From assembly GCF_011382965.1 (NCBI RefSeq), contig NZ_CP049934.1:1240001-1304000 (forward strand): a stretch of DNA of 64,000 bases, read 5' to 3'. Below are positions 2,644-36,140 of the stretch, one piece after another. The stretch's first letter is position 1. Each line of letters begins with the position of its first letter. A program made the position numbers and the translations under genes. Source of the DNA: Leucobacter insecticola. GTDB lineage: Bacteria; Actinomycetota; Actinomycetes; Actinomycetales; Microbacteriaceae. The notes under the pieces were generated by a model. That model was not told the DNA's origin. It ran no database searches and saw only the letters and a list, made by a program, of their open reading frames with translations.

Positions 2644-4542
2644 TCAAGACCGTGTACGCGCGGCGCGGAGCCCGTTGAGGATGACGATAACCTCAGCAAT
2701 TTCGTGGACCAGCACGACAACGGCGAGCCCGAGGACACCAAACAGCGCCAACGGAAGCAGTGCGACGATGATCAACAGTGACAAGATGATGTTCTGGTTG
2801 ATGATGCGCCTGCCACGTCGTGCATGCGCCAACGCTCGCGGAATCAGGCGCAAGTCGTGGCCGGTGAACGCGACATCGGCGGACTCGATCGCCGCGTCCG
2901 AACCAGTCGCACCCATCGCGATGCCGACATCTGCGGCAGCAAGTGCGGGGGCGTCATTGATGCCGTCCCCGATCATCGCCACCGACCCAGTCGCAGCAAG
3001 CTCGTTGATCGCGATAGCCTTGTCCTCTGGCCGCAGCTCAGCACGCACGTCCTCGATGCCAGCTTGGCTGGCGAGAGCGTGAGCGGTGCGGGCGTTGTCG
3101 CCGGTGAGCATCGTCACCCCGATTCCCTGATCGGCGAGTGTGCGGATCACTTCCGGTACCTCGGGTCGCAGCTCATCGCGCACTCCAATCGCACCGACTG
3201 GTTGTTGGTTTCGGTGTACGACCACGACAGTCATGCCCTGCCCCTCCAACGCTGCAACTTGACCGGCGAGGGCTCCGGTGTCCAACCAGCGAGGGCTGCC
3301 AACGGTGACCGTTGCGCCGTCAACGAAGCCGGTGATGCCGTGTCCGGCCTGTTCAGACACCTCAGCGGCAGCAGGCGCGTCAGCGGCTTTCTGGGTGATC
3401 GCGTCCGCCAGCGGGTGAGTGCTGTGCTGCTCCAGCCCGGCTGCCCACTCGAGCACGTCGGCCTCAGTCGCGGTTCCTGCGGTCAGGACAGCGGTGACGG
3501 TGGGCTGATTTCGGGTCAGCGTCCCTGTCTTATCGACGGCAACGCGACGGATTCCGCCGAAGCGTTCGAAGATCGCGCCGGACTTGATAATCACACCGAA
3601 CTTGCTCGCCGATCCGATGGCGGCAACTACGGTGATGGGCACTGAAATCGCTAACGCACAGGGAGACGCTGCGACGAGCACCACCAGGGCGCGGGTGATC
3701 CACAGCTCCGGGTCACCCAACAGTGACCCGATCAATGCAACCAGGACGGCAAGGATGAGGATGCCGGGCACAAGTGGGCGGGCAATCCTGTCCGCGAGGC
3801 GGGCGCGGTCACCCTTCTCGGCCTGGGCCTGCTCGACCAGTTCAACGATTGTCGTTAGTGAGTTGTCCGTCCCTGCAGCTGATGTCTCAACCTCCAGCAC
3901 ACCGGCGGTGTTGATCGCTCCGGCCGAAACCGTGTCGCCGGGCTGGACCTCGACCGGGATCGACTCTCCGGTGATCGCTGAGGTGTCCAGGCTGCTGCGC
4001 CCAACGCGAACGAGCCCGTCCGTCGCGATCCGTTCCCCTGGACGCACCAGCATGATTTGGCCGACCGTGAGTTCTTTCGCAGCAACCTCAACCGGCGTTC
4101 CGTCAATACGAATCGTGGCGGTCTCGGGCACGAGCTTTAGCAGAGCCCGCAGGCCGCCGCGGGCTCGGTCCATCGCCTTGTCCTCTAAAGCTTCAGCGAT
4201 CGAGTAGAGAAACGCCAGCGCAGCGGCTTCTTCGACATACCCGAGGATCACGGCACCGATCGCGCTAATCGTCATGAGTAAACCGATTCCGAGCTTGCCC
4301 TTGAGTAGCTTGCGGATGGCACCGGGCGTAAACGTCGATGCGCCCGCCACTAGGCCCGCCCAGAACAACACCAGTGCAGGAGTTTCCGCCCCGGACCACT
4401 CAACGATCAGGCCAGCAAAAAACGCCAGACCCGAGAACACCGGTAGCAGAATCTCCCGGTCCCTCCACCATGGCACATCGTGATCATCGTCATCGCCGTC
4501 CAGGTCGACGTCCTCGACCTGCGGACCCGTCACCGTGCTCAT
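2644..4542 (-). CDS. cadA: Heavy-metal translocating P1B-type ATPase (CadA/CtpG-like)
   Basis: A metal-efflux ATPase of 632 residues from the ATG at 4542. It has the phosphatase TGES (about 191-194), the ion-path S-P-C motif in a membrane helix (about 293-295), the phosphorylation motif DKTGTL (about 337-342), and GDGIND near the C-terminus. The last helix carries H-E-I-A-E-V. There is no N-terminal CxxC metal-binding domain, only a short Asp/His-rich tail. SPC instead of CPC occurs in the Co/Zn/Cd-type P1B ATPases, so the metal is not settled. The start overlaps the cmtR stop as ATGA, indicating translational coupling, and the sensor next door suggests Cd/Pb. An in-frame ATG at 4596 would lie inside cmtR and is less likely. 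Confidence 0.9.
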   Translation of the reverse strand: MSTVTGPQVEDVDLDGDDDDHDVPWWRDREILLPVFSGLAFFAGLIVEWSGAETPALVLFWAGLVAGASTFTPGAIRKLLKGKLGIGLLMTISAIGAVILGYVEEAAALAFLYSIAEALEDKAMDRARGGLRALLKLVPETATIRIDGTPVEVAAKELTVGQIMLVRPGERIATDGLVRVGRSSLDTSAITGESIPVEVQPGDTVSAGAINTAGVLEVETSAAGTDNSLTTIVELVEQAQAEKGDRARLADRIARPLVPGILILAVLVALIGSLLGDPELWITRALVVLVAASPCALAISVPITVVAAIGSASKFGVIIKSGAIFERFGGIRRVAVDKTGTLTRNQPTVTAVLTAGTATEADVLEWAAGLEQHSTHPLADAITQKAADAPAAAEVSEQAGHGITGFVDGATVTVGSPRWLDTGALAGQVAALEGQGMTVVVVHRNQQPVGAIGVRDELRPEVPEVIRTLADQGIGVTMLTGDNARTAHALASQAGIEDVRAELRPEDKAIAINELAATGSVAMIGDGINDAPALAAADVGIAMGATGSDAAIESADVAFTGHDLRLIPRALAHARRGRRIINQNIILSLLIIVALLPLALFGVLGLAVVVLVHEIAEVIVILNGLRAARTRS

Positions 4543-4898
4543 GCGCCCGCTCCCAGCTCGCAGCAACCCGCGACTTGGCAGGCTGGGTCGATACACGGGG
4601 CGTGCTCATCAACCGCCAAAGTGACCTCAACCAGCGCATTAAGTGCAGCTGCCAAATGTGGGTCCGCGATCTCATAGCGAGTCTGTCGCCCCTCAGGCTC
4701 GGCCACCACGATCCCGCAATCCCGCAAACACGTCAGGTGGTTCGACACGTTCGAGCGCGTCAAGTCCAAGCTACGCGACAGCACCGCCGGATAGCTTGGC
4801 TCTTCCAGCAAGCTCATCAGAATCCTCGACCGAGTCGGGTCAGCCATTGCCCGACCCAATCGGTTCATCACGTCTAGACGAGAAGCAATAGTCAGCAT
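4539..4898 (-). CDS. cmtR: CmtR-type ArsR-family Cd/Pb sensor
   Basis: An ArsR/SmtB winged-helix repressor of about 119 residues. The recognition region reads L-T-R-S-N-V-S-N-H-L-T-C-L-R-D-C. Its two Cys, together with Cys residues in the C-terminal tail (H-A-P-C, D-P-A-C), correspond to the metal ligands of mycobacterial CmtR, which is known to sense Cd(II) and Pb(II). The start at 4898 is chosen because it aligns with the known CmtR N-terminus (M-L-T); an in-frame ATG at 4916 also exists. The stop overlaps the downstream ATPase start by four bases. An inverted repeat over the start probably gives autoregulation. Metal specificity is inferred from the Cys pattern. Confidence 0.9.
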   Translation of the reverse strand: MLTIASRLDVMNRLGRAMADPTRSRILMSLLEEPSYPAVLSRSLDLTRSNVSNHLTCLRDCGIVVAEPEGRQTRYEIADPHLAAALNALVEVTLAVDEHAPCIDPACQVAGCCELGAGA

Positions 4899-4909
4899 GC
4901 GATGACTAT
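4888..4909. promoter_or_regulatory. cmtR: Candidate CmtR operator (inverted repeat)
   Basis: A perfect 7-bp inverted repeat ATAGTCA/TGACTAT separated by 8 bp covers the preferred cmtR start codon. Its position suits an autoregulatory operator of the cmtR-cadA pair, perhaps on a leaderless transcript. No protein-binding evidence exists here; the assignment rests on symmetry and position. Confidence 0.45.
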
Positions 4910-5062
4910 ACAGCATTCGCTGAATCGTGGCGAGCGTGCACCCTTCTGCCCCAGCGTGAAAGCTCGGGTTCTAAGAATTTAGGCAATCAACTGCGCTTGA
5001 GTCTGGGTAGTGAGCACTTCAGTTTCTGAGATTCACGAACGGTGTCTGGGCAACCCGTGAAC

Positions 5063-6547
5063 TTATCCGTTCATGCGTCCAGTGGTATCGAACGCGGCGA
5101 GCTCCGCCGGGTGGAGCTGATGCTGCACGACGAAGGAGCGATCCTTGATCCGCCAGAGACCCTGACCGGTGCCGAGTGTGGGGAGCAGTTTCTGTTCTGT
5201 GCCAGTCAGTCCGAGGGCTGTCGCGGTCGAACCGAGCTGGTCGGGTTCCTGGCGGTAGACGATCCGCGTCTCCGCATTGGCAAGGAGAGAAGAAGCAAGG
5301 GCGCGCATGGCCGAACCCTGGTCGCCCACGTTGTCGAGATCGGTGAGCTTGTGGAAGATCAGCATATTCGCAATGCCGAAGTGCCGTGCAAGGCGCCACT
5401 GCGCATCCATGCGCCGGAGCAGAGCGGGGTATTGCATAAGCCGCCAGGCTTCGTCGTAGATCACCCACCGTTGCCCACCCGCCGGGTCTGAGAGCGCCGA
5501 TTCCATCCACGCGGATGAGCAGGTCATCAGTACGGAGATAAGCATCGAGTTCTCGGCCACCCGCGACAGGTCGAGCGACACCATTGGTAACGAAGGATCG
5601 AACTTCACCGTCGACGGGCCATCGAACAAGCCTTGGAGATCGCCTGCAACGAGCCGGCGGAGGGCGTGGCCGACGAGCCGACCGTCTTCCGCAAGTCGTC
5701 CGTCCTCGCCTGTCATCGGATCAGGGGCGAGGATGCGGTCTACGATCATCGGCAGAATCGGTACCTCTGCTGATCGCACCGCATCCGCCAACGCCAGATC
5801 GATCGCGGTGTGCTCCAACGGCGACAACACCCGGTCAAGTACCGTCTCCGCGAGCGCGCCGATCAGGTCACGGCGACGCGAAGTCACTTGCATGGCCCAC
5901 TCCGCGTCCGAGATGCCTGCGGGACGGTGCCCTTCATCGATCGGGTTGAGCCGGTTGGACAGCCCGTGACCGAGGACGATTGCGCGTCCGCCGACGGCTT
6001 CGGCCACGGCGGTGTGTTCCCCTTTGGGATCGCCAGGAACATAAACGCGCCGCCCAAAGGGCAACGACCTCGTGTACAGCGACTTCGCCAGTGACGATTT
6101 CCCGGAGCCGACGATGCCCGCGAGCACAACGTTGGGCGCGGTGATGAGCCCTCGTTGGTAGAGCACCCACGGGTCATACACGAAGCTGCCGCCCGAGTAG
6201 AGGTCCTGGCCAACAAACACACCGGCTGAGCCCAGGCCCCCTTCGGCGAGGAACGGATATTGCCCAGCCAACGTTGCCGAGGTGTCTTGGTGCCTGGGGA
6301 GCCTGAGCCTTCCCGGTGTTCGGAGCATCGCCGGTCCCAGATCGCCGGCGGCGGGTAGGTACGTGGTGGCGCGCTTCTCGGTTTGTTCGGACTCCCGCTT
6401 TTCCTTCGCGGCGGCCTTGCGGGTGTTGCGTGCTGCGGTCTCGATTTGGGCAGCAGCACGACGGCGAGCTTTACGGTTGCGGCGACGTTCACCTTCGGGG
6501 TCGATGAGCGTCGAGGTGTGCAAGCGCTCCCCGTCAGGGGTAGTCAT
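5063..6547 (-). CDS. VirB4/TraC-like conjugation ATPase
   Basis: A 494-residue P-loop ATPase of the type found in actinobacterial conjugative elements (SCO6880/VirB4-associated). A basic N-terminal tail rich in Arg/Lys/Ala (about 20-60) is followed by Walker A GIVGSGKS (144-151) and Walker B V-I-Y-D-E-A-W (about 361-367). A C-terminal stretch resembles the nucleotide-pocket closure of VirB4 proteins. It would power DNA or protein movement through a type IV secretion-like channel at the membrane. It is shorter than full-length VirB4, as usual for the actinobacterial ICE version. The start overlaps the stop of the upstream gene (ATGA), so the two form an operon. That operon is cut at its 5' side by the IS3 element. 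Confidence 0.85.
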   Translation of the reverse strand: MTTPDGERLHTSTLIDPEGERRRNRKARRRAAAQIETAARNTRKAAAKEKRESEQTEKRATTYLPAAGDLGPAMLRTPGRLRLPRHQDTSATLAGQYPFLAEGGLGSAGVFVGQDLYSGGSFVYDPWVLYQRGLITAPNVVLAGIVGSGKSSLAKSLYTRSLPFGRRVYVPGDPKGEHTAVAEAVGGRAIVLGHGLSNRLNPIDEGHRPAGISDAEWAMQVTSRRRDLIGALAETVLDRVLSPLEHTAIDLALADAVRSAEVPILPMIVDRILAPDPMTGEDGRLAEDGRLVGHALRRLVAGDLQGLFDGPSTVKFDPSLPMVSLDLSRVAENSMLISVLMTCSSAWMESALSDPAGGQRWVIYDEAWRLMQYPALLRRMDAQWRLARHFGIANMLIFHKLTDLDNVGDQGSAMRALASSLLANAETRIVYRQEPDQLGSTATALGLTGTEQKLLPTLGTGQGLWRIKDRSFVVQHQLHPAELAAFDTTGRMNG

Positions 6548-7041: not shown

Positions 7042-7323
7042 GTGTTTAGTGATGAGTTCAAGCGAGACGCTGTCGCGCTGGTCGAGTCGGGCATCTCGCA
7101 GAAGACGGTGTGTAAAGATCTTGGCGTCTCGAAGTCCGCGTTGCAGTCATGGGTGCGCGACGCGAGGTTCCAGTCCCACGGAATGACCCCGTCAGCTGAT
7201 CCTGTCGAGCGGGCCGAGATGGCGAAGGCCGTGAAACGGATTCGTGAGCTTGCGATGGAAACCGAAGTGCTCCGTCGCGCGGCAGCATACCTGTCACAGA
7301 TACACATCACACCCCCAAAATGA
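7042..7323 (+). CDS. IS3 transposase OrfA
   Basis: A protein of about 93 residues with an N-terminal HTH_Tnp_1-type helix-turn-helix (F-S-D-E-F-K-R-D-A-V, then ISQKTVCKDLGVSKSALQSW) and a leucine-zipper-like tail, which binds the terminal repeats. The frame starts with GTG at 7042. The family usually begins M-P-K-x-F-S-D-E-F; here that position is CTG (7030), behind a GGAAGG ribosome site, so the true start may be the CTG. The stop overlaps the orfB start (ATGA). Confidence 0.85.
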   Translation: MFSDEFKRDAVALVESGISQKTVCKDLGVSKSALQSWVRDARFQSHGMTPSADPVERAEMAKAVKRIRELAMETEVLRRAAAYLSQIHITPPK

Positions 7324-8204
7324 TCTCCCCGCTCGTCCAAGAGATGGCTGCGCCAGGTGCCCCTGTCAGGGTGCCGGTCGCGGTGGCGTGCCGGGTGTTG
7401 GGTTTCAGTGAACAGGCCTACTACCAGTGGCTGAAATGCCCGAAATCTGCGCGCGAGATTGAGGAAGAACACCTCATTAGCGTGCTGCGTGAACTCCACG
7501 AGGACGACCCCGAACTCGGGTACCGGTTCCTCGCTGACGAACTCCATGACCTCGGCTACCAGGTGAGCGAACGCAGGGTGTGGCGATTGTGTCATGTTGC
7601 AGGCATCAGTTCAGTCATTACGCAGCGTAAGCGCCGCTACCAGCAGGCTGGCCCGCCCGTGGGTGATGACCTCGTGAAGCGTGAGTTCACCGCTACTGGC
7701 CCGAACCAAGTGTGGCTGACCGACATCACGGAGCACTGGACAGGTGAGGGGAAGCTGTACCTGTGCGCGATCAAGGACCTCTGGTCGAACAAGATCGTCG
7801 GCCAGTCAATGGGGCCGCGCATGAAGGCCAGGCTCGCGGTTCAGGCGCTTACGAACGCGGTCCAGCAGCGCGGCTACCCTGAAGGCGTGATTGTGCATTC
7901 GGATCGCGGAAGTCAATTCAGGTCAAGGAAGTTCCAGAAGGCCCTGAAACGGTACAGGTTGAGAGGGTCGATGGGCAGGGTGGGGGCGTGTGGGGATAAC
8001 GCTGCGATGGAATCCTTCTTCAGTCTGCTGCAGAAGAACGTGCTCGATCGTAAAGCCTGGCGTACTCGGCAAGAGTTGCGGCTCGCGATTGTGCACTGGA
8101 TTGAAGCGAAGTACCACCGTAAACGCAGACAGCGCCGGCTTGGGAAGCTGACGCCGGTCGAGTTCGAAGTGGTTATGATGGATGCTGTCGCGTTGGCGGC
8201 ATAA
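7320..8204 (+). CDS. IS3 transposase OrfB (DDE integrase domain)
   Basis: A 294-residue catalytic subunit with an N-terminal HTH_21-like region followed by an rve integrase core. Candidate DDE residues lie in W-L-T-D-I-T-E-H, V-H-S-D-R-G-S-Q-F and N-A-A-M-E-S-F-F. The ATG overlaps the orfA stop. In many IS3 elements OrfA and OrfB are joined by a -1 frameshift; here an A-rich stretch (CCAAAATGA) precedes the overlap, so coupling or frameshifting is possible. The reading frame is full length and appears functional. Confidence 0.93.
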   Translation: MISPLVQEMAAPGAPVRVPVAVACRVLGFSEQAYYQWLKCPKSAREIEEEHLISVLRELHEDDPELGYRFLADELHDLGYQVSERRVWRLCHVAGISSVITQRKRRYQQAGPPVGDDLVKREFTATGPNQVWLTDITEHWTGEGKLYLCAIKDLWSNKIVGQSMGPRMKARLAVQALTNAVQQRGYPEGVIVHSDRGSQFRSRKFQKALKRYRLRGSMGRVGACGDNAAMESFFSLLQKNVLDRKAWRTRQELRLAIVHWIEAKYHRKRRQRRLGKLTPVEFEVVMMDAVALAA

Positions 8205-8462: not shown

Positions 8463-9007
8463 GGGCAACTCCTGAAAGGGTGGCGGGTCGACGCAGCGCG
8501 CGACGACCCTCGTTAACCACCAGGTACGTGCCAAAAGAGAAATAATTGAGCCCTGAGATGAAACCGTTCTACCGATGCACGCGAGCCGTGGCCCCTCAGT
8601 GATCTTCGCGGGCCAGCCAGGTTGTCCTGCTCACCTGAGTTTAAGAGCAGTCCACACGATCGGCAATCAACGACCAAGGCCCCGAGGTAACTCTGACTTG
8701 CCAGTCGGCTGATACACGGTGGGAGGATGCCCAAGCGTTTCTTCGCCTCGGGTCAAGGAGCCGACAGGTTGAAGGCACCAGGCGATATCGGAGCCCCTAA
8801 GTCCCAACGATCGGTTGGTGCTCTCGCTCCTAGGGATCTGAACCCAAACACCCAGTCTTCGTTATCTGCGCGACACTCTCCACTTGAAGGAAAGCCTTCG
8901 CCACTGACGAGCGATACACCAGACGTCTATCGACACTCCGGTCAATGTTGACTTCACTCGTCAGCATAATGCGACCTCCCGTGAGCGTGTTCGATAGACT
9001 CTTGCAT
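8463..9007. other. Gene-poor spacer left of lasso cluster
   Basis: About 540 bp with no convincing gene. Short frames here lack ribosome sites or recognisable sequence. A near-palindrome GTCAATGTTGAC lies near 8940-8951 and the right end merges into the TetR promoter. This is probably the junction between the conjugation module and the transferred lasso cluster. Confidence 0.5.
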
Positions 9008-9021
9008 ACTGTCCGGTCAGT
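9008..9021. promoter_or_regulatory. Candidate TetR operator upstream of regulator gene
   Basis: ACTGTCCGGTCAGT is a 14-bp imperfect palindrome (12 of 14 positions symmetric), ending 24 bp before the regulator's ATG. It shares ATAC and TCAGT elements with the palindrome in front of the lasso precursor gene at 14097-14118. This suggests that one TetR protein controls both promoters. Assigned from symmetry and position only. Confidence 0.45.
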
Positions 9022-9044: not shown

Positions 9045-9656
9045 ATGACCCTTAACAAGCGCGAAGCCCAAAGGGGCGCCACTAAGGCCGCCATTCTCCA
9101 AGCCGCCAGCGAAGAGTTTGACGCGCGAGGCTACGCAGGTACTGCCATCAGCGACATCGCAAACCGGCTAGACCTAACGAAAGGCTCCGTTTACTTTCAT
9201 TTTCCGTCGAAAGCCCTACTCGCCATCGAGATCGTAGACAGATACTTTTCTGCGTGGGTACCAATGCTGGAGGAGGTCGAATCGCGCGGATTGAGTGGAC
9301 TCACAGCAATTAGATGGGTTAGCGAGCAGGCAGCCGCAAGCTATCGCGATAATGCAACTATTAGAGCGTCGGTGCGGCTTATGCGTGAAGCCTCACTGAT
9401 AGATGCAGAAATGCCAACGCCTTTCGTTGACTGGATGGAGAACACCCATCGCTGGCTCATCCAGGCGCGAGATGCTGGCGAGCTTAGGGACGGACTCGAT
9501 CTCGAGGACGCGGCCTGGCATATTGTTGCGGTTTTTCACGGTATCCAGGAAGTCGCGAGTCGACTAGGCGAATGCGCTCAACTAGCGTCGAAAAATGCGA
9601 CGATCTGGTCGCTACTACTAAAGGGCATCGAATCTGGAAATGAAACCAAGGCCTGA
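9045..9656 (+). CDS. TetR-family regulator, gamma-butyrolactone-receptor-like
   Basis: About 203 residues. The N-terminal TetR HTH (about 10-55) includes D-L-T-K-G-S-V-Y-F-H-F, followed by a ligand-binding domain. The motifs R-A-S-V-R-L, P-F-V-D-W and the overall spacing resemble the ArpA/ScbR group of autoregulator receptors from Streptomyces. The ATG at 9045 is preferred because GAAGAG lies seven bases upstream; a GTG at 9030 is in frame. It converges on the exporter gene of the lasso cluster and is the only regulator adjacent to it. A butyrolactone-type synthase (AfsA) is not in the window, so the ligand is unknown. It could also sense the peptide or another small molecule. Confidence 0.7.
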   Translation: MTLNKREAQRGATKAAILQAASEEFDARGYAGTAISDIANRLDLTKGSVYFHFPSKALLAIEIVDRYFSAWVPMLEEVESRGLSGLTAIRWVSEQAAASYRDNATIRASVRLMREASLIDAEMPTPFVDWMENTHRWLIQARDAGELRDGLDLEDAAWHIVAVFHGIQEVASRLGECAQLASKNATIWSLLLKGIESGNETKA

Positions 9657-9698
9657 ACAGGGTAATTTTCTCGCGCTTATCGAGCCAGCTCCCATTGG

Positions 9699-11471
9699 CT
9701 ATGATGCACCTTTCATCGCACGGACAAGGGTATCGTTGTCACTCAGTTGCTCAATCGGCCCCGATCCGGCCACTTTTCCACCTTCGAGAACTACGATCGA
9801 GTCAGCCGATTGAATTAGCGCCGCACGGTGAGTTATCACGAGGACTAGGTGCGCCTTGGCCAAACGGCGAATTGCTTCCGCAACGAGACGTTCGTTCTCG
9901 ACGTCGAGACTTGAACTAGGTTCGTCAAAGAGATAAATGGGTGAAGGTGTTAGAAGTGCGCGGGCTAGCGCGACACGTTGTCTTTCACCGCCTGATAATG
10001 CATGGCCACGCTCCCCAACCCTCGAATCTAGGCCGTTCGGCAATTCCGAGATGAACTGACCGAGCCCACTTTGAACAAGTGCCTCAACAAGCCGTTCATC
10101 TCCAGCAGCAAGTTCACTGGCAATCCTTCCATAGAGCAAGTTCTCACGAAGCGTTCCATCAAGAAGCGGCGAATCCTGATCAACCAAGGTGAGCATGCGG
10201 CGATGATCAAACGGATCCAAATCCAGGATACTCGCTCCATTCACAAGTATGCGACCAGAAGAAGGAGTCATGAATTGTTCAAGCAGATTGATAATGGTGG
10301 ACTTGCCAGCGCCCGACGGACCGACAATTGCGGCAATTCCTGGGCCTTGAAGACTAAACGTCACATTGTCTATCGCGTTCCTTTCATCGTCATAGCTTGC
10401 GGTGACGCCCTTAAACTCAATGGACGTCGGTGCGTGGAGGTTGTAGTTCGCTGCGCCTCTATCTTCGTAGTCCCGTCTCCTTTCGGAACCGAGCATCTTC
10501 GTATCCTCAATTCGCTGGAGCCCCGCGAGGCCCTGCTGCAACGTGGCCAAAGCGCCGAATAGTCCAGCAAGAGGCATCACGAGATAAGTGGCGTAGAGCA
10601 GGAAAGCGACAAGGTCACCGATATCCATTTCCCCCTTCGCTACTCGGATTCCACCGAGCAATAACACAATGAGCAAAGCACCATTGACTGCGAGCTCGAT
10701 CGCGGGACTCACCAAGGCACCTAGGCGTGCCGCACGAAGACCACCGTTATAGGCCTCATCGGTAGAGGCGTCGAGGCGAGTTCGCTCATCTTCTTCCGCC
10801 GAAAATGCTTTGACTGTGCGAATCGAGCCGAGAATACGTTCAAGATCAGCAGCATACTGTCCAACGGCTCCTTGGGCACGCTCAGTGGCGACTCGAATAC
10901 CAGCAAGAACAGTTACAACAAGTAGCGCAGCGACAACGATAGTGACGACCATTACCAAAAGAAGAGTCTTGTCAAGGCTGAGCATTAAGATCAGTGTACC
11001 TACACCATAAATGGCAACGGAGAACAACTGCACCAGACTCGTCGAGAGCATTTGTCTCACTACGGTGGTGTCACTAGTAGCCCTCGCCAGCAAGTCACCG
11101 GATCTGAATCGAGAGAGAGCCTTCAACGGCGCGCTGAGTATGCGCTTTCCGATGGATTTACGAAGATCGCGGGCCACGTTTTCGCTAACGCGTTCAAGTA
11201 GATATTGGGAGAGCGCGTCAATCACGGCACCAACTACAAACAGCCCGGCAAGAGCTACGATAAGCCCGCCAATTCTACCTTCATTGCTAACCTTATCAAT
11301 GAGCGTCTTTGTCAGCCAGGGTTGCGTAAGTGCCACCACCGCACCGACAGCCGTCAGTGCGAGCGCGAACACGAGTGCCGTTCTGTGACCTCGAAACAGC
11401 CGAACCGCTGACCATATGTTAGCGCGCGGCTCTTCGTTTTCAAGGCTCGTGGGCTTGGAGGAGCGCATCAT
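9699..11471 (-). CDS. Lasso peptide ABC exporter (protein D)
   Basis: A 590-residue half-transporter with about six membrane helices (residues 20-300) fused to a nucleotide-binding domain. It has Walker A G-P-S-G-A-G-K-S-T, signature L-S-G-G-E-R-Q-R-V and Walker B I-Y-L-F-D-E-P. In lasso clusters such proteins export the mature peptide and give self-immunity. The start at 11471 overlaps the protease stop (ATGA) with GGAAGGAAGA in front; an upstream ATG at 11483 is in frame. It is the last gene of the lasso operon. Base composition is clearly lower in G+C than the MobF or VirB4 genes. Confidence 0.9.
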   Translation of the reverse strand: MMRSSKPTSLENEEPRANIWSAVRLFRGHRTALVFALALTAVGAVVALTQPWLTKTLIDKVSNEGRIGGLIVALAGLFVVGAVIDALSQYLLERVSENVARDLRKSIGKRILSAPLKALSRFRSGDLLARATSDTTVVRQMLSTSLVQLFSVAIYGVGTLILMLSLDKTLLLVMVVTIVVAALLVVTVLAGIRVATERAQGAVGQYAADLERILGSIRTVKAFSAEEDERTRLDASTDEAYNGGLRAARLGALVSPAIELAVNGALLIVLLLGGIRVAKGEMDIGDLVAFLLYATYLVMPLAGLFGALATLQQGLAGLQRIEDTKMLGSERRRDYEDRGAANYNLHAPTSIEFKGVTASYDDERNAIDNVTFSLQGPGIAAIVGPSGAGKSTIINLLEQFMTPSSGRILVNGASILDLDPFDHRRMLTLVDQDSPLLDGTLRENLLYGRIASELAAGDERLVEALVQSGLGQFISELPNGLDSRVGERGHALSGGERQRVALARALLTPSPIYLFDEPSSSLDVENERLVAEAIRRLAKAHLVLVITHRAALIQSADSIVVLEGGKVAGSGPIEQLSDNDTLVRAMKGAS

Positions 11472-11896
11472 TCTTCCTTCCATCGGACGCTGTCAAGGAC
11501 AGCAAATTGACCCGGTTCGATCCCTTCCGCCACGGGATGACCGTTGACTTCGACCCATGCGTGCGCACCAAATGGCGCAGTAGTTCGCACACCAACACAC
11601 CAGTCAGCAAAGCCGCCTTCTGCGCGGCAGAGTAGGGCGACTGCTATTGACCGCGGGACGCATCCTTCACGATGGGCACAGCGCACGCTTAATGCGATCA
11701 CTTGAGCCCTCGCTTGTTTTGCATCATCCAAGCTTGAGGGCTTTCTGCTGGTGTTGAGGAGCTTCAAAAACCAAATGATTCGTCGAGGCTTGAGTTTGCA
11801 GAGCAGAAATGCGACCCCAATTGCAGTGCGTACTTTTATCCTACGGAGAACGCTCATCGGACTCTTCGGCTGAGATATCGTCACTTCATAGCTCAT
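11468..11896 (-). CDS. Lasso peptide leader peptidase (protein B2)
   Basis: A 142-residue transglutaminase-fold cysteine protease that removes the leader peptide before ring closure. The Cys nucleophile is in R-E-G-C-V-P-R-S (Cys79) and the catalytic His in G-A-H-A-W-V-E-V (His112). The usual third acidic residue is not in its standard form; E124 in P-V-A-E-G is a candidate. The N-terminal half (10-70) is the mostly helical region usual for B2. The start at 11896 overlaps the B1 gene by 11 bp (ATGAGCTATGA); an earlier in-frame ATG at 11917 is less likely. It works with B1, which delivers the substrate. Confidence 0.9.
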   Translation of the reverse strand: MSYEVTISQPKSPMSVLRRIKVRTAIGVAFLLCKLKPRRIIWFLKLLNTSRKPSSLDDAKQARAQVIALSVRCAHREGCVPRSIAVALLCRAEGGFADWCVGVRTTAPFGAHAWVEVNGHPVAEGIEPGQFAVLDSVRWKEE

Positions 11897-12146
11897 GGGT
11901 AAGACCGGCCTTTTCAAGTTCTTTTAGAAGCGCCAACAGGTCTTGCTCGATTAGCTCGACGGGGGCCTCGTATTCTTGGCCGAGTGCAATCGCGACCTCG
12001 CTCACCGACATTCCTTGTCGGAGCATGGTTATCAGTTGCAAGCCTGTCTCAGTTAGGTTCCAGTAGGTCCCGGTTTTCTTGTCAAGTAAGATCGCACCAT
12101 ACTCGGTTGGTGCAATCGACACCGACTCCTTCAGACTCGTCCCCAT
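11886..12146 (-). CDS. Lasso peptide RRE protein (PqqD-like B1)
   Basis: An 86-residue RiPP recognition element. The PqqD-like fold signature Y-G-A-I-L-L-D-x-x-T-G-x-Y-W-x-L-N/T-x-T-G runs across residues 16-35, followed by a helical region. In two-part lasso systems this protein binds the leader motif YxxPxLxxxGxxxxxT and presents the precursor to B2. The ATG at 12146 overlaps the end of the cyclase gene by 16 bp; the in-frame ATG at 12179 would add an 11-residue Gly/Lys tail unusual for the family. It is tightly coupled to both neighbours. Confidence 0.92.
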   Translation of the reverse strand: MGTSLKESVSIAPTEYGAILLDKKTGTYWNLTETGLQLITMLRQGMSVSEVAIALGQEYEAPVELIEQDLLALLKELEKAGLTHEL

Positions 12147-13945
12147 TGAACCTCCTCCTCCCTTTGTGCTCTTGCCCACATTTCCACGGCAAGTGTTTGG
12201 TCAAACATCCCCAAATCCATCCTCGGATCGGTAGGCCATTGAATCAGGCGACGAAGTAGAGGTTCGTCGATCAACCCTTCTCTGCTGAGGACAGAGTTTG
12301 TGAAGACTTGAATGAGTTTTTCTGCATTTTGCTCGAGTCCGCGGTATTCGTCACTCACCGCCATGCCTTTGGTGTTCCGTGATGTTGTTTTGTCTGAAAG
12401 GAACGGGGATGCGACTTCCGCTAATAACGGCTTGTATCGCCTAAGCGAATACCGAAGGCGCGGAGACAGCCCAAAGGCTGCTCGGGCGACACGATCATCA
12501 AAGTATGGGGAAGCAAGATGAACGCCGAGAGCCGCAGTTGCTTGCTCAAGCGGGCGAAGGGCTTCGGTTCCTGATTGGACTGAATTCCACTGGAGGTGAT
12601 CCAATAGTTTTCCAGCCCTAAGATCATGCCCCTCCTCGAGGAGTTCGGCGGCAACCTGAGCACGCGCATCGGTCGTCACCCATGATGGCACGGATGGCAA
12701 GAACTCCCACATAAGAGCATCTGGCACAGTCTGATCTGAGCTGATGGCGTGCGCGGAGTGTCTCAGCCAATTGGAGTAGGTGCGACGACTAAAGGCCCCA
12801 CGTATGATCCCTGAGAGGCCGACTCCTATTGAGGTACGAGCTTCCCTTCGCTCTTTCCACCACATAACTGGATCGCCGAGGTAATGCTGTGGCAATGGAG
12901 TAAACAGATGATCGCCTCCCATTCCAGTGAAATGGGTCCTTGATCCTAGTTTCGCCATGTCAAGGTACCCAGCAACTTGCCGAGGTATATCTAGGATGGT
13001 GGGAGTTGGCTCATCGAACAACAAGCCAGAATCAGAGATGTCAATGTGGTCGTAGAAGAATGGCAACTCCGCTGGTTCTATTACGGTATGCCTCACTGCT
13101 GAACCTAGTTCTCCGACAACCTGCCTTGACCAGGTGAGATCATCGTCCCCGGGGTCGCGACTCGCCATGGTTAGTGCTTCAAGTTGACCCACGCACTCCA
13201 ATCCGATTGAGGCAACGCAAGCAGAGTCTATTCCCGATACGTCGGCGCTAACGAGGCTTGCATTTGAGGAGTGGGCTTTCACGGACTGGCGAAGTTCCTC
13301 TCGTATCACTTCGCTTCCACTTGAGAAGGATAGAGAAATCGACTCCTGAGGGCTCCGAGCCAGTTCTGTTGCAAATGGAGCGCCTCGATTCGCGATGATG
13401 AATGAGCCGGGAGGAACGGTGCTCACTGAGGGCCACATGGTGTTCTGACGTGATCCCGCGTGGACACCGAGGAGGCGCGATGCAAGGCGGGACTTTGAAT
13501 ATGTTTCGTTCAATACCCACGCAAGCAACTGAGCGTGGCTTGCGATGATCCAGCCGTTTCCGGTTTGGGTGACATATACGCGCTTGGTGCCGCTTCGGGT
13601 TCCCTCCACTCGGACGAACTCTTCATCATGCGCCAAGGAATGAAAACTTCCGCCTGCCATGAGTGGGTCAAGCGCCCTGACGCTAGAAGCGCCGTGCAAG
13701 CTGTCGCGTATCGCCTGGGGGCTGGCGCTGATCGAGCCGAGTAGAACTATCGACCGGTCGCTAGTGGTCGCATGGATGACTTCATCCTGGTCCCAGCTGC
13801 CGACTAGCCATGTGCGCCCGGATTGATATGAAATTCTGCTGCTTTGCGCCTTAAAGCCTCCAGGCGGCCGGGGTGAAGGCATGGCGGGAGCCGACTCAAT
13901 GTCGGGTAGCGCCACAAACCAGCTCTCGCCATGTCTTCTGGTCAT
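12131..13945 (-). CDS. Lasso peptide cyclase (asparagine-synthetase-like, protein C)
   Basis: A 604-residue homologue of asparagine synthetase B. In lasso biosynthesis it adenylates the side-chain carboxylate of the ring Glu/Asp and closes the macrolactam with the core N-terminus. The N-terminal half keeps the glutaminase-like fold but lacks the Cys2 nucleophile, as expected. The ATP-pyrophosphatase motif, normally S-G-G-x-D-S, reads S-G-I-D-S at residues 237-241, one residue short. The start at 13945 has CAGGAG six bases upstream and follows the precursor stop by 18 bp. Context leaves little doubt about the role; whether the shortened loop still works is open. Confidence 0.92.
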   Translation of the reverse strand: MTRRHGESWFVALPDIESAPAMPSPRPPGGFKAQSSRISYQSGRTWLVGSWDQDEVIHATTSDRSIVLLGSISASPQAIRDSLHGASSVRALDPLMAGGSFHSLAHDEEFVRVEGTRSGTKRVYVTQTGNGWIIASHAQLLAWVLNETYSKSRLASRLLGVHAGSRQNTMWPSVSTVPPGSFIIANRGAPFATELARSPQESISLSFSSGSEVIREELRQSVKAHSSNASLVSADVSGIDSACVASIGLECVGQLEALTMASRDPGDDDLTWSRQVVGELGSAVRHTVIEPAELPFFYDHIDISDSGLLFDEPTPTILDIPRQVAGYLDMAKLGSRTHFTGMGGDHLFTPLPQHYLGDPVMWWKERREARTSIGVGLSGIIRGAFSRRTYSNWLRHSAHAISSDQTVPDALMWEFLPSVPSWVTTDARAQVAAELLEEGHDLRAGKLLDHLQWNSVQSGTEALRPLEQATAALGVHLASPYFDDRVARAAFGLSPRLRYSLRRYKPLLAEVASPFLSDKTTSRNTKGMAVSDEYRGLEQNAEKLIQVFTNSVLSREGLIDEPLLRRLIQWPTDPRMDLGMFDQTLAVEMWARAQREEEVQWGRV

Positions 13946-13963
13946 TTCAACTCCTGTGTTGAA

Positions 13964-14080
13964 CTAGAGCCCGAGAGGGACCCGGATGCGGGGCTCGGGG
14001 ATACCGCGCCGAAGGAACCCTGTGTCCTTCTCGAATGATCCCACTCGAATCAGCCAAGGCTGGATATACGTCTTCTTCAT
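13964..14080 (-). CDS. Lasso peptide precursor (protein A), 38 residues
   Basis: A small gene with an ideal ribosome site (AGGAGGTGA) in front of the ATG at 14080. The leader (21 residues) fits the RRE motif YxxPxLxxxGxxxxxTx exactly: Tyr5, Pro8, Leu10, Gly14, Thr20. With Thr at leader position -2 the core is FLRRGIPEPRIRVPLGL. The predicted ring is an eight-residue macrolactam between Phe1 and Glu8, with a nine-residue tail. The layout parallels the fusilassin precursor, whose leader also ends T-G before an aromatic residue. The alternative, Gly as residue 1 and Glu9, would place Thr at -1 and fits the motif less well. It is first gene of the operon A-C-B1-B2-D. With ring closure assumed the peptide has four Arg and no free acidic side chain. 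Confidence 0.9.
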   Translation of the reverse strand: MKKTYIQPWLIRVGSFEKDTGFLRRGIPEPRIRVPLGL

Positions 14081-14096
14081 CTCACTTCACCTCCTC

Positions 14097-14118
14097 ACAT
14101 ACCGTACGGCTAGTCAGT
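14097..14118. promoter_or_regulatory. Candidate ARE-like operator upstream of lasso precursor
   Basis: ACATACCGTACGGCTAGT, continuing CAGT, lies about 17 bp upstream of the precursor start. Its ACATACC...CGG half resembles the autoregulatory elements bound by butyrolactone receptors. It shares ATAC and TCAGT blocks with the palindrome in front of the TetR gene (9008-9021). It lies in the 141-bp spacer that also holds the divergent relaxase start. Confidence 0.45.
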
Positions 14119-14221: not shown

Positions 14222-17200
14222 GTGAACCCAGATCGGATGCCGCCAGATCTGCCGTACCTGCATGACATGACGGTGTCGATCAGAGTGATGAGCGCTGGTC
14301 AGGGGTACCGGTACTTACTCAGTTCAGTTGCGGTCAATGATGGGGACTTAGGCTCCGTGTCCACGTTGACAAGGTATTACACCGAGACTGGAACCCCGCC
14401 GGGGCGCTGGCAGGGTGCAGGTCTCGCCGGTCTCGCCGGTCGAATCTCGAGCAATGATGAGGTGAGCGAGCAGCAGCTTCGGTTGCTCATGGGGGCTGGT
14501 AAGGATCCCACCACTGGTGAGTTGCTTGGACGTCCCTATCGGCAGTTCGCCACCGCAGCGCAGCGGGTCGAGCGTCGGATCGACAGACTTCCAAAGGGTC
14601 TCTCCCGAGACGAGAGGGACGATCAGGTCGCATTGATCGAGACGGAGGAGGCTAAGAAGCCTACTGCTGCTCCTGTGGCAGGCTTCGATCTGACGTTTTC
14701 GGTGCCGAAGTCGGTGTCCACGCTGTGGGCGGTCGCTGATGCTGGGATGCAGGCGTTGATCGCGCAAGCACACCACGCTGCGATCCAGGATGTGATCGGG
14801 CTGCTCGAGCGCGATGTTGCGATGACCCGTGTCGGTGCAGCTGGACCGCGCGGTGCTGTTGCACAAGTTGAGGTGCACGGTGTGGTGGCGACCGCCTATG
14901 ACCATTACGACTCTCGCTCTGCAGATCCTCAGCTACACACCCACGTCGTTGTTGCGAACCGGGTACAAGCAGTACGCGACGGGAAGTGGCGGACCTTGGA
15001 CTCGCGCGCGCTGCACGGTGCAATCACGGGGCTGTCCGAGCACTACAACGCAGTTCTCTCCGACCACCTAGCGGCGCTGGTCGGTGTTAGTTGGGAAGCC
15101 CGGGAACGTGGCCCAGGGAGGTCGACCGCGTGGGAGATCGCCGGGGTGCCACAAGCGTTGATGGATGAGTTCTCCTCCCGCACTCGTGATCTTGAGCTAG
15201 TCAAGGAGCGACTGGTCGCGGAGTACCGCGAAAAGCATGGGCGGGAGCCGTCCTCGAAAGTGCTGTGGAAGTTGCGTCAACAGGCGACCCTAGAGACTCG
15301 GCCAGCCAAACAGCACCATTCACTCAATGACCTCACCACCATGTGGCGCAGCCGCGCCGAGGGCTTCTTCACCAAGATGCTTCGACCTGGGCTCGCACGC
15401 TCATCTCAGAGAGCACACAGGAGCCGATGCTGCGCGCCGACGACCTCGCTCTCGACGACTTGACCGATGTCGCAGAGGTAGTGGTGGAGGTTGTGGGAGG
15501 TCGTCGTGCGACGTGGAAGCGATGGAATCTGCACGCCGAAGCCGTCAGGCAAACGATGGGGCTTCGGTTCGCTTCGACCGCTGACCGGGACGCGGTAGTG
15601 GGCATGATCGTTGACGCTGCCGAACGAGCCTCGCTCCAGCTCACGCCCGGCGAACTCGCATCCACCCCAGCAGTGTTCCTCCAGCGCGACGGTTCCAGCG
15701 CGTTTCGTCCCAAGGCATCGCTTGTCTACACCTCGGAGAAGATGCTGGCCGCCGAGGACCGCCTCCTTGCTGCCTCATCGCAGCGAACCGCCCCAACCCT
15801 TCCGATCGCGCTCGTCGACCATGTCGCACAGAAGCCTGGCCCCAGCGGGCACACCCTGTCTACAGAACAGCAGCAGGCGGTCGCGAAGATCGCCGTCTCC
15901 GGACGAACCCTCGATCTCCTCGTCGGTCCGGCAGGCACAGGAAAGACCACCACTATGAGCGGACTGCACCGAGCTTGGGAACGCGCACATGGACGCGGAT
16001 CGGTGATTGGCCTGGCCCCGTCGGCCGTGGCCGCTGAGGTGCTCGCAACAGACCTCGGGATCAGCACTGAGAACACCGCGAAATGGCTACACGAGCACCA
16101 TCACGGCCGATGGAACCTCACCGCCAATCAGCTCGTCATCATTGACGAGGCCTCGCTAGCCGGCACCCTCGCACTCGACGCCATCACCGCCCACGCCGCA
16201 GAGGCCGGGGCGAAGGTGCTGCTGGTCGGTGACTGGGGCCAGTTGACCGCGGTGGACGCGGGCGGCGCGTTCGGGATGCTGGTGCGCGACCGCGGCGACG
16301 CCCCGCAACTGATGGATGTGCGCCGGTTCCGCAACGACTGGGAAAAGCAGGCTTCGCTCGCCCTGCGCATCGGTGACACCGACGTCATCGACACCTACAT
16401 TAACAATGACCGCATCATCCACGGTGCCTACGAGACGATCCTCGACCAATCCTACGGAGCCTGGCTCACCGACCGTGCGGCAGGTCTCACGTCCGTGCTC
16501 ATCGCAGAAACCCTAGACACGGTCGCAGATCTCAACGCTCGTGCCCGCACCGACCGGATCGTCGCAGGAGAAGTCGCCCCCGACGGCCTGCGCCTTCACG
16601 ACGGCAACGAAGCCTCCGCCGGTGACATCGTCATCACTCGCCGCAACGACCGGCGCCTCTCGCTCGGGCGCGGCTGGGTCAAGAACGGTGACCGCTGGAT
16701 CGTCACCGCCACCAACAACGACGGATCCCTCACCGCCCGCCGAGAAAAGTCCAAATGGCGCACTACCATCACCCTCCCCGCTGCCTATGTCGCCACCGAC
16801 CTGGAACTCGGCTACGCCATCACCACACACCGTGCCGAGGGCTCAACCCTCGACACCGGTCACGCCATCGTCCATTCCCCAGAGATGACTCGAGAAGCCC
16901 TCTACGTCTCAGGCACCCGCGGACGGGAAGCCAACCACATCTACGTCGCTACCGACCAACACCACCTCGAGGAACACCAACATCGCGACGACCTCACCAT
17001 GACCGCACGCAGCATCCTGTACGGAATCCTCCAACACGAAGGTGCAGAGAAGTCAGCACACGAGACCATCCGCGCAGAGCAAGATACGTGGGGTTCACTG
17101 TGGCAGCTCGCTGCTGAGCACGAAACAATCGCCAACGAAGCCCAACAACAACGCTGGATCACGCTCTGCGAAGAAGGCGGCCTCACCGCCGAACAGATCG

Positions 17201-17787
17201 ATGACCTCATCGATTCTGAATCCTTCGGGATCCTCGCCACAGAACTACGCCGCCTAGAAGCAGCCGGGCACCGCATCGACGCCCTCCTGCCGAGGGTCAT
17301 CCGGGCAGGCCGCCTGAATGAGGTAGAAGACCTTGGGTCATTGCTGCGATACCGGGTCACCACAGTGGCAGCCGCGTACCCGCCAGTGAAGTCACCTGAA
17401 GCCGGTCTCATCGCAGGGCTCATCCCCAGGGCTATCGGAATCACCGACGACGACATGGCACGTGCCCTCACCGGACGAGAGGAACTCATCACCAAACGTG
17501 CCGCAGCCCAAACCCGGCTCGCCCTCGAGCAACGCGAGCCCTGGATCGAGACACTGAACCCCCGACTATCGCCTCCGGAGCTGCTAGCTCAGATGGAACT
17601 CATCGTTGCCTACCGCGACCGCTGGGGTATCACTGCAACAAGCCCCCTCGGAACGATCCCCGATGACGACGCCCAACGCATCGACTACAAACGAGCCCAA
17701 GTGCACCTGAAAACATCGAGCACACAGAAAGCACCCGTTGAGCGCGCCAAACAAAGTCAGTCACGGATCTCTCAACGCGCCTTCTAG
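14222..17787 (+). CDS. MobF (TrwC/TraI-like) relaxase-helicase, one-base frameshift
   Basis: Nicks the transfer origin, stays bound to the strand and unwinds DNA during conjugation. The N-terminal relaxase part (14222-about 15376) has candidate catalytic tyrosines (Y-R-Y-L-L, R-Y-Y-T-E) and the metal-binding triad in P-Q-L-H-T-H-V-V-V. The C-terminal RecD-like helicase has Walker A G-P-A-G-T-G-K-T-T (15925-15951), L-V-I-I-D-E-A-S and the motif T-T-H-R-A-E-G-S-T. The two parts lie in different frames and meet near 15376; one extra G there (AAG-GAT) gives a seamless protein. No slippery heptamer is visible, so this is a mutation or sequence error. The start is GTG 14222 behind AAAGGAG; ATG 14267 is an alternative. 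Confidence 0.88.
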
Positions 17788-21152: not shown

Positions 21153-24100
21153 CTAACGTGCACGACGCGCCCACAGTGCCGTGCCGCCAGCAGCGATCAG
21201 TGCGAGAGCGAGACCAGCTGCAGCCCACGCCTCGCGGCCAGCTCCGGTCCGCGCGAGAGGCTCGCTCGGGGACGGTGGTGGTGTGTCAAGGACTGTGGTT
21301 GTTTCGTTGTCAGCTCCGCAGGTGCCGCGGTGCAGCATCGTCCCATCGGCGGTGTAGAGCGTCTCGATCCAGAAGTAGGTGCCAGCCTGCTCAAAGACCG
21401 TCTCGGCGGAGGTGTAGTCCCCGGGACCAGTGACAGGAGTGAGTGTGTCATGGGTGTCAAACGCGAGGTTCTTCGCCTCACAGACCGGTGTCTTCCCGGT
21501 CTGCCGGTAGGCCTGGAACGCCAACACCGCACCCTTAGGCACGTCGCCGGTGACCGTTGCGACGTCGTGGGCAGGCTGACCCAAAGTCACCTCAGGGACG
21601 GCTCCCGTCGATACCGTGAACTCCGCTGGTCTTGCGGAGATGATCGTGGTCTCGCCTGGTGCCCCGAAGAAGCCCTCCGCGAGCACTTGTCCGTCCGGGC
21701 CGTAGAGCGTCTCGATCCAGAACACCAGCCCCGGCTTGTCGACTTTCGTCTTTCCTGAGTCGTAGGTGCCCGGCCCATTCACCGGTACCGGCTCAGATGT
21801 GTAGAAGGGCTCCGGCTCATCGGCTGCTGCTGGCTGCTCCGGGAAGGGACCGTAGGCGCGGAACACCAAGGTCGACCCTGCCGGGACCGTGCCGGTGACG
21901 ATCGCATGGTCACGGATCGGGTCGCCCACCAACGCGTCCGGGGTCGCCTGAGTCACCACTGACACAGGTGACGGCGGGGGCGGCGGGACGTAGAAACGTT
22001 CGAGGATGTCACCCGGTGAGGACCGGTACGGTTGCACCCGGTCATCACCAACGAAGTCTGAGACGACCACATAGTACCCGGGATCTGTGGGGCGTATCTC
22101 GTCGGAGTCTGTGTAGCCCAACTTGTAGGTGCCGTTGCGTGCCGGAGTGGACAGCTCCATCAGCACCGGTGCGCCTTCCAGCTCGATGTCGTCGGTCAAG
22201 ACCGTATCGCTCTCGAATGGCCCGTAGACGGTGTGGGTGATCACGTCGACGTCGGAGCCCCAGTATCCGTCTCCGGTAAAGTCGCCGTGGTTGTCGGGGA
22301 ACCCAGACACCGTGATGGTGTCGAAGGCGCGACCTCCCGGGTGCACGTTGTACTCACGCACCTCTGAGGTCACCCGGCCGGGCCATCGCACCGACGTTGA
22401 CTCAACTGGGATCCCGAAGTTGTCGGCCCAGTTGTCAGCAATGTAGTCCCGATACTGTGCGGGCTGGCTTGAGAGCTTAACCTCCCACACCCATGTCACA
22501 AACCCAGCATCTGGGTGGAGCACGGGCGGGGAGGTGTAGATCCCGGGACCTGTCGCCGTCACCTGCACCCGGCCCAACACTTTCGCATCCGAAGGGACCC
22601 CTGTTTGCTCAATCGGTGGCAAAGATCCGGCGACTTGGTAGGCCGTGCCATCGAGCACTACCGGAATGTAGACGCCCGCGATCTTGAGCCATGCCCCATT
22701 GGTTGACGACACCGTGATCGTGTCAGTGACCTCATCACCAGGAACCGCCAAGCGTGCATCCGCTTTCGACACTGCCTCTGGTTGGAACGGACCCACATGT
22801 GTCTCGGTCACCCGTCCGAAATGGTCGATGAACGAGGCACGAATGTACTTCCCATTCTGCCCCTGCGCGGCTTTGTCGATCTGCCACACCCACGTGTAGA
22901 ACCCTGACCCCGGCGCTCGAAGCGTTCCCGGTGACCGGTATTCGCCCGTCCCACGATCGAGCAGCACCGTCTCCGATCCCACCACAGGAGCACCATCGGG
23001 GACCTTTTCTGACTGTGCAGGCTGTTCATCGAAAGGCCCGTACAGTGTGCCCTTCGCAGTCAGCGGCACGGGGTGACCGTCGACGTTGATCCATGCCCCG
23101 GTGCCCACTGTCGAGACGGTCAAAAGATCAACGAAGGGCTCACCATCAGCAACGAACTTCGCCGCCACGGTGGTGCCGATGACGGGTTGAAAGTCCAGTG
23201 CGATCCAGGGCGTTTGTGCGGCAGCCGTCACCGCGGCCGGTGTTCCATTGGCCAGCAACCGTTGCGCCCCCGGGGTCTCGTACAGGTTCACGCGAGCGCC
23301 GAGTCCCGCCCCACTATATGAAGCAGAGGCTTCAATCTGGTACTGCGGAGCCCCAACAGCAGGCTTGCCGACAATCGGATACGTGCCGCTGCCCAGCGCC
23401 CTCGAACTCGTCCCATCTAGGAACACCGCGTCTGTCAAAACCACGTTCCCGCTCAACGCTGGCGTTGAGAGAGCAACGGTCAATGACCCGTTGAACTGGT
23501 CTTGCATCGCAATCGACAAACTCACCGTCGGATCCACCGCGTGATTGGCTTCTGCCTCCGCTCGCATCGCGCCTAGATTCGCCAGAACTGCGTCACGGTA
23601 GGCCGTAGGAACCCGGCGAATGAACCACGCATCACCGTGCATCCCATGCGAGTGATACGTGTCAGGGTCGCCGATATCCCACACGAAGAGTTGGACCGCT
23701 GCAGTGATGTTCGGGTCTTGGGAGTCACCCCACCGAGACAAGACGTAGTTGAGCTTCGCTAACGCCGTCTTGGACAGCTGCCCGCCTGTGTGATTGGTGA
23801 TATCAGTGACTGTCGTTGGTCCTGAAGTGGGTGAGTTCAACGGTGATGGCGCACCTGAGTCCAGGCAGTACACCTGACGACCGTCCGACTCTGCAACGAA
23901 CGCGCCCACGGTCCCGGCACCATTGAGATCACCGTGTCCTGGCCCCAAGAGCGCCGCCTGCGCACTCATACCCAGACCCAACACGCCACTGGTCGCAAGC
24001 ACCGCGCTAACCGCCACAACACTTAGCAAACGTCGCAGCCCCCGACGCAGAGATCTCACCCCGGTGGAGACGCGGCAGCGATTGGTGGATGAGTTGACTG

Positions 24101-26814: not shown

Positions 26815-26982
26815 GCTCGGATGATCTGAGATGTGCTGGCGTGGGGCGCAGACGTGGCAGCTCCTGGAGTAGGCAGACCCCGGCAAGTGAGTTGAAGCTA
26901 GGGCGAGGATGGTTCCTGAGGAATGAGATGATTAAGTGTGGTGACAGCCACACAAGAGTCATCTTCAGGCTTGGAGGACACC

Positions 26983-35980: not shown

Positions 35981-36140
35981 CCGGGACCTGGCCGGGACCT
36001 GATGCATGCAAACCATGCAATCCATGACGTGAAATGGTGCCGTTTGAGGGGCAGGGAACCCCGGAAAGTCAAGGATCTGGGCTGAACCGTCTACCTGGGG
36101 GTCAAGGGGTCGCAGGTTCAAATCCTGTCAGCCCGACCAA
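35981..36140 (+). repeat. 160-bp direct repeat, left copy, ending in tRNA-Pro 3' half (att-like)
   Basis: Matches 42494-42653 over exactly 160 bp with about 90 percent identity by eye. The last 46 bp are the 3' part of a tRNA. The first part contains the nested repeat GGGACCTGGCCGGGACCTG and GCATGCAAACCATGCAATC, which may be recombinase arm sites. It looks like an attachment-site end of the 36.1-42.7-kb module. Confidence 0.75.
36094..36139 (+). tRNA. tRNA-Pro(GGG) 3' half, partial
   Basis: Runs from an anticodon loop CTGGGGG and 3' stem TCAAG through the T-arm GCAGGTTCAAATCCTGT to the acceptor end and CCA. The 5' half is absent, as the preceding bases do not pair. It is therefore an att core, not a working tRNA. 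The second copy (42607-42652) differs by one base, GTTCGAAT. Confidence 0.65.

Follow-up and report, generated by a model that had tools for sequence, protein, structure and literature searches.

Does a compact block of genes in the genome of Leucobacter insecticola encode all that is needed to make and export a lasso peptide, and what would the product be? The block lies in a stretch of 64,000 nt (contig NZ_CP049934.1 of assembly GCF_011382965.1, positions 1,240,001-1,304,000), here called the window, and the coordinates below refer to it. With high confidence we read the block, from its sequence, as a complete class II lasso-peptide cluster situated in mobile-element DNA, and its genes very probably serve to make and export a small knotted (lasso) peptide. 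In brief, five unbroken reading frames in the order A-C-B1-B2-D occupy the minus strand of 9699-14080. A gap of 18 bp separates A from C, and the pairs C/B1, B1/B2 and B2/D overlap by 16, 11 and 4 bp, respectively. A preliminary description of this DNA had proposed this tight one-strand order and a ribosome site before A; both are borne out, and the ribosome site is strong. The parts are as follows.

13964-14080, minus strand: A, lasso precursor of 38 amino acids, with the leader MKKTYIQPWLIRVGSFEKDTG and the predicted core FLRRGIPEPRIRVPLGL; PF19397
12131-13945, minus strand: C, AsnB-type lasso cyclase of 604 amino acids; PF00733
11886-12146, minus strand: B1, PqqD-like leader-binding protein (RRE) of 86 amino acids; PF05402, NF033530, TfuB1
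11468-11896, minus strand: B2, transglutaminase-like leader peptidase, 142 amino acids counted from ATG; NF033537
9699-11471, minus strand: D, ABC exporter of 590 amino acids with membrane domain and ATPase; PF00664, PF00005
14087-14095, minus strand: ribosome site AGGAGGTGA, ending 6 nt upstream of the ATG of A

Family models, conserved residues and 80 related loci all back the lasso reading. The small A protein had been said to fit a lasso leader motif, and it does. The model PF19397 (DUF5972) gives 38.9 bits against a cut-off of 22.6. The six frames of the window hold a single instance of the strict motif Y..P.L...G.....T; 100 dinucleotide shuffles gave a mean of 0.03 occurrences and a maximum of 1. 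Its fixed residues in A are Tyr5, Pro8, Leu10, Gly14 and Thr20, the last being position -2 of the leader, and the ring acid would be Glu8 of the core. Only one genome in the family sample of 398, this one, has a PF19397 match above cut-off. At E<=0.1 the model matches 21 of these 398 genomes and two of 14 control genomes, none of the control matches lying above cut-off. A precursor search of plasmids gave no match at E<=1. One near-cut-off match (22.0 vs 22.6 bits) was seen in another genus of the family (L022; G088 contig 6).

The claim that A is too small for standard gene calling does not hold, as RefSeq plasmid records contain annotated precursors of similar size: one of 39 amino acids, named as a keywimysin-related RiPP (ribosomally synthesized and post-translationally modified peptide; L042), and one of 36 amino acids, named as a lariatin family lasso peptide (L044). 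For a Rhodococcus ruber plasmid (L043), neither precursor nor cyclase is listed in the PLSDB table, which is itself incomplete.

The roles proposed for B1, B2, C and D agree with the profile models, and for C also with the predicted fold. B1 scores 70.3 bits on the lasso PqqD model NF033530, just above the cut-off of 70; it also matches PF05402 and TfuB1 of solved structure (6jx3, E 6e-12). B2 scores 88.0 bits on the lasso B2 model NF033537 (cut-off 33) and is the only PF13471 match in the genome at E<=0.001. Its Cys79, His112 and Glu124, which we take to be the catalytic residues, are invariant in 13 aligned proteins, B2 itself among them. D carries the ABC membrane domain PF00664 and the ATPase domain PF00005.

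Profile and predicted fold both mark C as an AsnB-type synthetase. It matches PF00733 (Asn_synthase) with 88.7 bits and has no Cys at position 2, thus lacking the glutaminase Cys. At E<=0.001 the genome has no other PF00733 match, although 11 of the 14 control genomes have such matches. An AlphaFold model built with 42 sequences has a mean pLDDT of 86.7 and a pTM of 0.90, and its closest solved folds are TsnB9 (a hydroxyamidotransferase), beta-lactam synthetase, carbapenam synthetase and AsnB. A sequence search found no solved structure of a C relative at E<=0.01. According to the accessible part of a review, no crystal structure of a lasso cyclase exists (PMC13352647).

We propose the following pathway. 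The PqqD-like B1 would bind the YIQPWL leader, and B2 would cleave after Gly21, one residue past the conserved Thr20. C would then use ATP to activate the Glu8 side chain and join it to the Phe1 amino group, closing an eight-residue ring around the tail PRIRVPLGL. D would export the product and probably also serve in self-protection. A TetR-type regulator of the ScbR family, described below, probably represses the cluster and would be released by a small signal. For the product, an antibacterial or signalling role directed at other actinobacteria is most likely.

At E<=0.001, and counting this genome, relatives of C occur in two of 54 genomes of the genus, 7 of 398 in the family sample and 12 of 396 in the phylum sample. 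Among plasmids there are 35 records at E<=1e-5, all below 60% identity. Searching the genome contigs with C alone gave 10 stretches, none of which was confirmed, and none of 13 stretches in viral contigs that fitted the pattern for C relatives was confirmed either. An alignment of C with three relatives (four sequences) found 163 related loci, and the locus counts below refer to the 80 best. The order C-B1-B2 on one strand is present in 60 of these 80 and C-B1-B2-D in 47, at least 3 kb downstream being available in 72. The second genome of the genus with a relative (L003; G030 contig 76) encodes a different lasso-type precursor, whose leader begins with YIAPVVEEVGTF, next to a cyclase 25% identical to C.

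The setting of the cluster is that of mobile DNA, and two features frame it.

14222-17787, plus strand: MobF/TrwC relaxase in two overlapping frames, 14222-15463 and 15343-17787, by profile match
7320-8204, plus strand: transposase with rve and HTH_21 domains on the other flank, by profile match

The frame-split relaxase next to the cluster had gone unmentioned in the preliminary description. Its first piece is matched in 41 of the 54 genus genomes, many of which have a single frame of about 1180 amino acids. The transposase is presumably of the IS3 type. The GC content of the cluster is 54.3%, against 60.4% for the window. At third codon positions (GC3), C, B1, B2, D and the TetR gene have 0.52-0.61, and six other frames of the window (including both relaxase frames) have 0.68-0.82; the GC3 of A is 0.74, A being too short for this to be weighed. 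DNA common to three relatives of the genus begins at 14245-14266, just past A, and those three genomes have no match to C. One of them (L137) additionally shares 107 bp with 2877-2983. No tRNA, and hence no tRNA-borne insertion site, was found within the window. Based on the deviating GC, the split relaxase, the transposase on the flank and the shared DNA that starts beyond A, the lasso cluster was probably acquired as cargo of a conjugative element now incomplete.

Several observations weigh against a complete and working lasso cluster. A scores 14.9 on the NCBI leader model NF033521, below its cut-off of 19 and thus only suggestive, and C reaches 200.6 on the albusnodin/ikarugamycin-type macrolactam cyclase model NF033561, short of its cut-off of 300. 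No sigma-70-type promoter was seen upstream of A, and the number of promoters in the region is at chance level (4 found, 2.9 expected). None of 54 known cores compared begins with Phe. Among the 94 proteins placed in a tree, none of the other 93 exceeds 31% identity to C. C sits at the end of a branch of 1.94 changes per site, within an open six-row fork (support 88) together with the plasmid-borne L042, L043 and L045, the lariatin-type L044, and L013. We are unsure of this placement, as none of the sets starred in the tree includes C and long branches meet. Finally, the ATP (PP) loop of C reads SADVSGIDS, one residue shorter than SGGxDS.

These points bear on an alternative that we consider unlikely, namely a silent or decaying passenger, complete in structure but either unexpressed or equipped with a non-working cyclase. 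The cluster does adjoin a frame-split relaxase, C is strongly diverged with a short ATP loop, and no close relative was found for measuring selection. Against decay stand the five open frames that overlap or almost touch, and the retained residues: in an alignment of 42 sequences G238, D240 and K505 of C never vary and S241 hardly does, and B2 keeps its Cys, His and Glu. Short loops are also frequent in relatives. A pattern search of the 80 relatives counted DLSGGxDS in 50, DLGGxDS in 22, DLSGxDS in two, DLTGGxDS in one and DDSGGxDS in one. Four escaped the pattern and were read by eye as HLSGLDS (L053 and L122), DLGGFDS (L124) and, in L088, no loop found. As the short form is this common and is present in a lagmysin-type locus (L107) with a predicted core identical to lagmysin, a short ATP loop would not on its own argue for a dead enzyme.

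Where the core begins decides what a working cluster would make. Precursors were read with the conserved Thr set as position -2 of the leader, and a precursor is readable beside C in 74 of the 80 related loci. Beside L012, a precursor is visible only on a longer stretch of the same genome (L130), with the core LGGQGPKDTLVKHQAL. An acid stands at core position 8 in 52 of the 74, at 9 without one at 8 in 16, at 7 alone in one, and at none of 7-9 in five; residue 1 is Leu in 41, Gly in 20 and Phe in two. Thr-Gly (TG) ends the leader in 52 precursors, as it does in A. In these the acid is at 8 in 46, at 9 in two, at 7 only in one and absent in three, and they begin with Leu in 40 cases and with Phe in two (L070 and L094). 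The proposed core boundary is therefore supported. Applying this Thr -2/TG-leader rule to A, we predict the product FLRRGIPEPRIRVPLGL with a Phe1-Glu8 ring, a nine-residue tail and a mass of 1970.205 Da after water loss. The linear core has 1988.216 Da, four Arg and a net charge of about +3. Since the core holds no Cys, the product would be a class II lasso peptide under the class definition in the accessible part of a cited review. The preliminary description did not recognise it as a described lasso peptide, and a search of 5.39 million open papers turned up neither the exact core nor its eight-residue piece LRRGIPEP.

A cut by B2 one residue earlier would give the core GFLRRGIPEPRIRVPLGL with a Gly1-Glu9 ring, which we regard as quite improbable. 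Gly is the commonest first residue of known lasso peptides (37 of the 54 compared) and Gly21 is present in A; nine-residue rings exist, and among the 22 precursors without a TG leader end the acid is at 9 in 14. An early cut would, however, place Thr at -1, against the penultimate-Thr rule reported in the accessible part of PMC10368454. Citrulassin and lagmysin begin with Leu according to the accessible part of PMC12427821, and the matching loci have TG directly before that Leu. The TG-leader count given above likewise makes an early cut less probable.

That C, B1 and B2 instead make an unthreaded head-to-side-chain macrolactam or another RiPP, and no true lasso, is very improbable: threading is unreadable from sequence, and the closest solved folds to C are other AsnB-type ligases, a solved lasso cyclase not being found, but B1 and B2 both match lasso models (NF033530, NF033537), A belongs to PF19397, and the layout agrees with lariatin-type, citrulassin-type and lagmysin-type loci.

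The predicted Phe1-Glu8 lasso and its genes can be set beside known systems. The accessible part of PMC4960549 describes lariatin of Rhodococcus as the product of five genes, larABCDE, for precursor, cyclase, B1, B2 and exporter, the same order as A-C-B1-B2-D here. The annotated lariatin-family locus on a Rhodococcus plasmid (L044) likewise has A-C-B1-B2-ABC exporter, and both it and the locus on the R. ruber plasmid (L043) are on plasmids typed MOBF. Lariatin differs in that Gly1 and Trp9 are essential there, according to the same source; the core here has Phe1 and Pro9. The related loci include citrulassin-type cores and, by a table in the accessible part of PMC12427821, the lagmysin-identical core of L107. 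Citrulassin (LLGLAGNDRLVLSKN) shares the YxxPxLxxxGxF....TG leader, a bulky residue 1 and an eight-residue ring, and most citrulassin-type loci fetched have the order C-B1-B2-D. Its ring is Leu1-Asp8 and Arg9 is called its defining feature in the accessible part of PMC12971885, in contrast to Phe1, Glu8 and Pro9 here; its cyclases are about 28-31% identical to C.

Lagmysin (LAGQGSPDLLGGHSLL) and predicted LGxxRGPE cores share the TG leader end, the eight-residue ring, Pro7 and the short ATP loop. The lagmysin tail is unrelated, and the tree does not join the window C with the lagmysin-type cyclases. As the tree keeps the two apart, the ATP loop may have been shortened twice, once in the window C and once in the lagmysin-type line. 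Lassomycin (GLRRLFADQLVGRRNI) resembles the predicted core in Leu2-Arg3-Arg4, the acid at 8 and its cationic character; here no methyltransferase gene lies between A and D. A kinship of the core to lassomycin is not significant, as 1454 of 20000 core shuffles match the lassomycin ring equally well, and 14827 of 20000 do so for at least one ring among the 54 known cores. A five-gene cluster of this layout is already known, since lariatin larABCDE and the annotated L044 share the gene order; what sets this member apart is a core not seen in the open literature searched, the isolated cyclase and the probable signal-responsive regulator. It should be said that Phe1, a short ATP loop off the known clade and butyrolactone-receptor control are each modest or unproved.

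The regulator is encoded beyond D. The region of the preliminary description, 9045-14118, also includes this convergent low-GC TetR gene, which went unmentioned there.

9045-9656, plus strand: TetR regulator of the ScbR/butyrolactone-receptor family, convergent to D; NF041196; GC3 0.56
9005-9016, plus strand: candidate operator CATACTGTCCGG upstream of the TetR gene, weak and chosen post hoc
14098-14109, plus strand: candidate operator CATACCGTACGG directly before the ribosome site of A, weak and chosen post hoc

The TetR protein scores 153.0 on the ScbR-family model NF041196 (cut-off 150) and is the sole one above cut-off among 22 matches in the genome. Its best match of solved structure is 6srn, named merely as a TetR-family regulator, followed by CprB, AvaR1 and a butyrolactone receptor. 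In GC3 composition the gene fits the cluster. Elsewhere in the genus, a single genome (G018) encodes a homologue of 55% identity; it has no match to C. A relative of this TetR is found in four of the 80 related loci (tblastn, bits 40-116), so the pairing of TetR and cluster is not a family rule. An AfsA-type synthase (PF03756) gave no match in the genome, nor did the control genomes give any. No inverted repeats of at least 8 nt were found upstream of A.

A shared operator, CATACNGTNCGG, is not significant and is kept as a lead, the pattern having been derived from the two candidate sites. It has three mismatch-free occurrences in the genome, two of them before TetR and before A, and the reversed control has two. 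The best local alignment of the upstream stretches of TetR and A lies outside CATACNGTNCGG and is reached by 265 of 1000 shuffles.

Some further genes of the window were noted. On the transposase flank, an E1-E2 (P-type) ATPase and an adjoining ArsR-type regulator (2644-4916, minus strand) are perhaps a metal-resistance pair. A 494-residue protein (5063-6547, minus strand) has no Pfam match at E 0.001 and a weak PADLOC mad8 match (39.2 bits). A 1007-residue open frame (21153-24176, minus strand) has neither a Pfam nor a PADLOC match at E 0.001. A DUF6037 protein (26938-27630, plus strand; 71.4 bits) is without a PADLOC match. At 30701-34788 (plus strand) lies a Type III restriction-modification pair, a methyltransferase (PADLOC MTase_III, 259.5 bits) followed by a Res-like protein (39 bits). 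About 45 bp at 36094-36139 are 95-98% identical to unannotated stretches in seven records of the plasmid collection from five actinobacterial genera; they lie about 0.6 kb from a DDE transposase gene (36727-38244) and are perhaps a repeat end.

Based on the lasso cluster and its neighbours, one may speculate on a transferable, signal-gated lasso system, a reading that we consider unlikely as a whole. It would consist of a cationic Phe1-Glu8 peptide, a cyclase from a branch not yet sampled, with a loop that became shorter separately from the lagmysin-type clade, and a co-travelling TetR of the butyrolactone-receptor type that binds CATACNGTNCGG at its own and the lasso promoters; the genome itself possibly does not produce the signal. 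If this were true, the host would release its peptide only after picking up the signal of neighbouring actinomycetes. With its ScbR-type regulator of similar composition and its mobile surroundings, the cluster offers a candidate case of a peptide under signal control that travels with conjugative DNA. To a genus in which two of 54 genomes hold relatives of this cyclase, it would add an isolated cyclase and a lasso peptide whose first residue is unusual.

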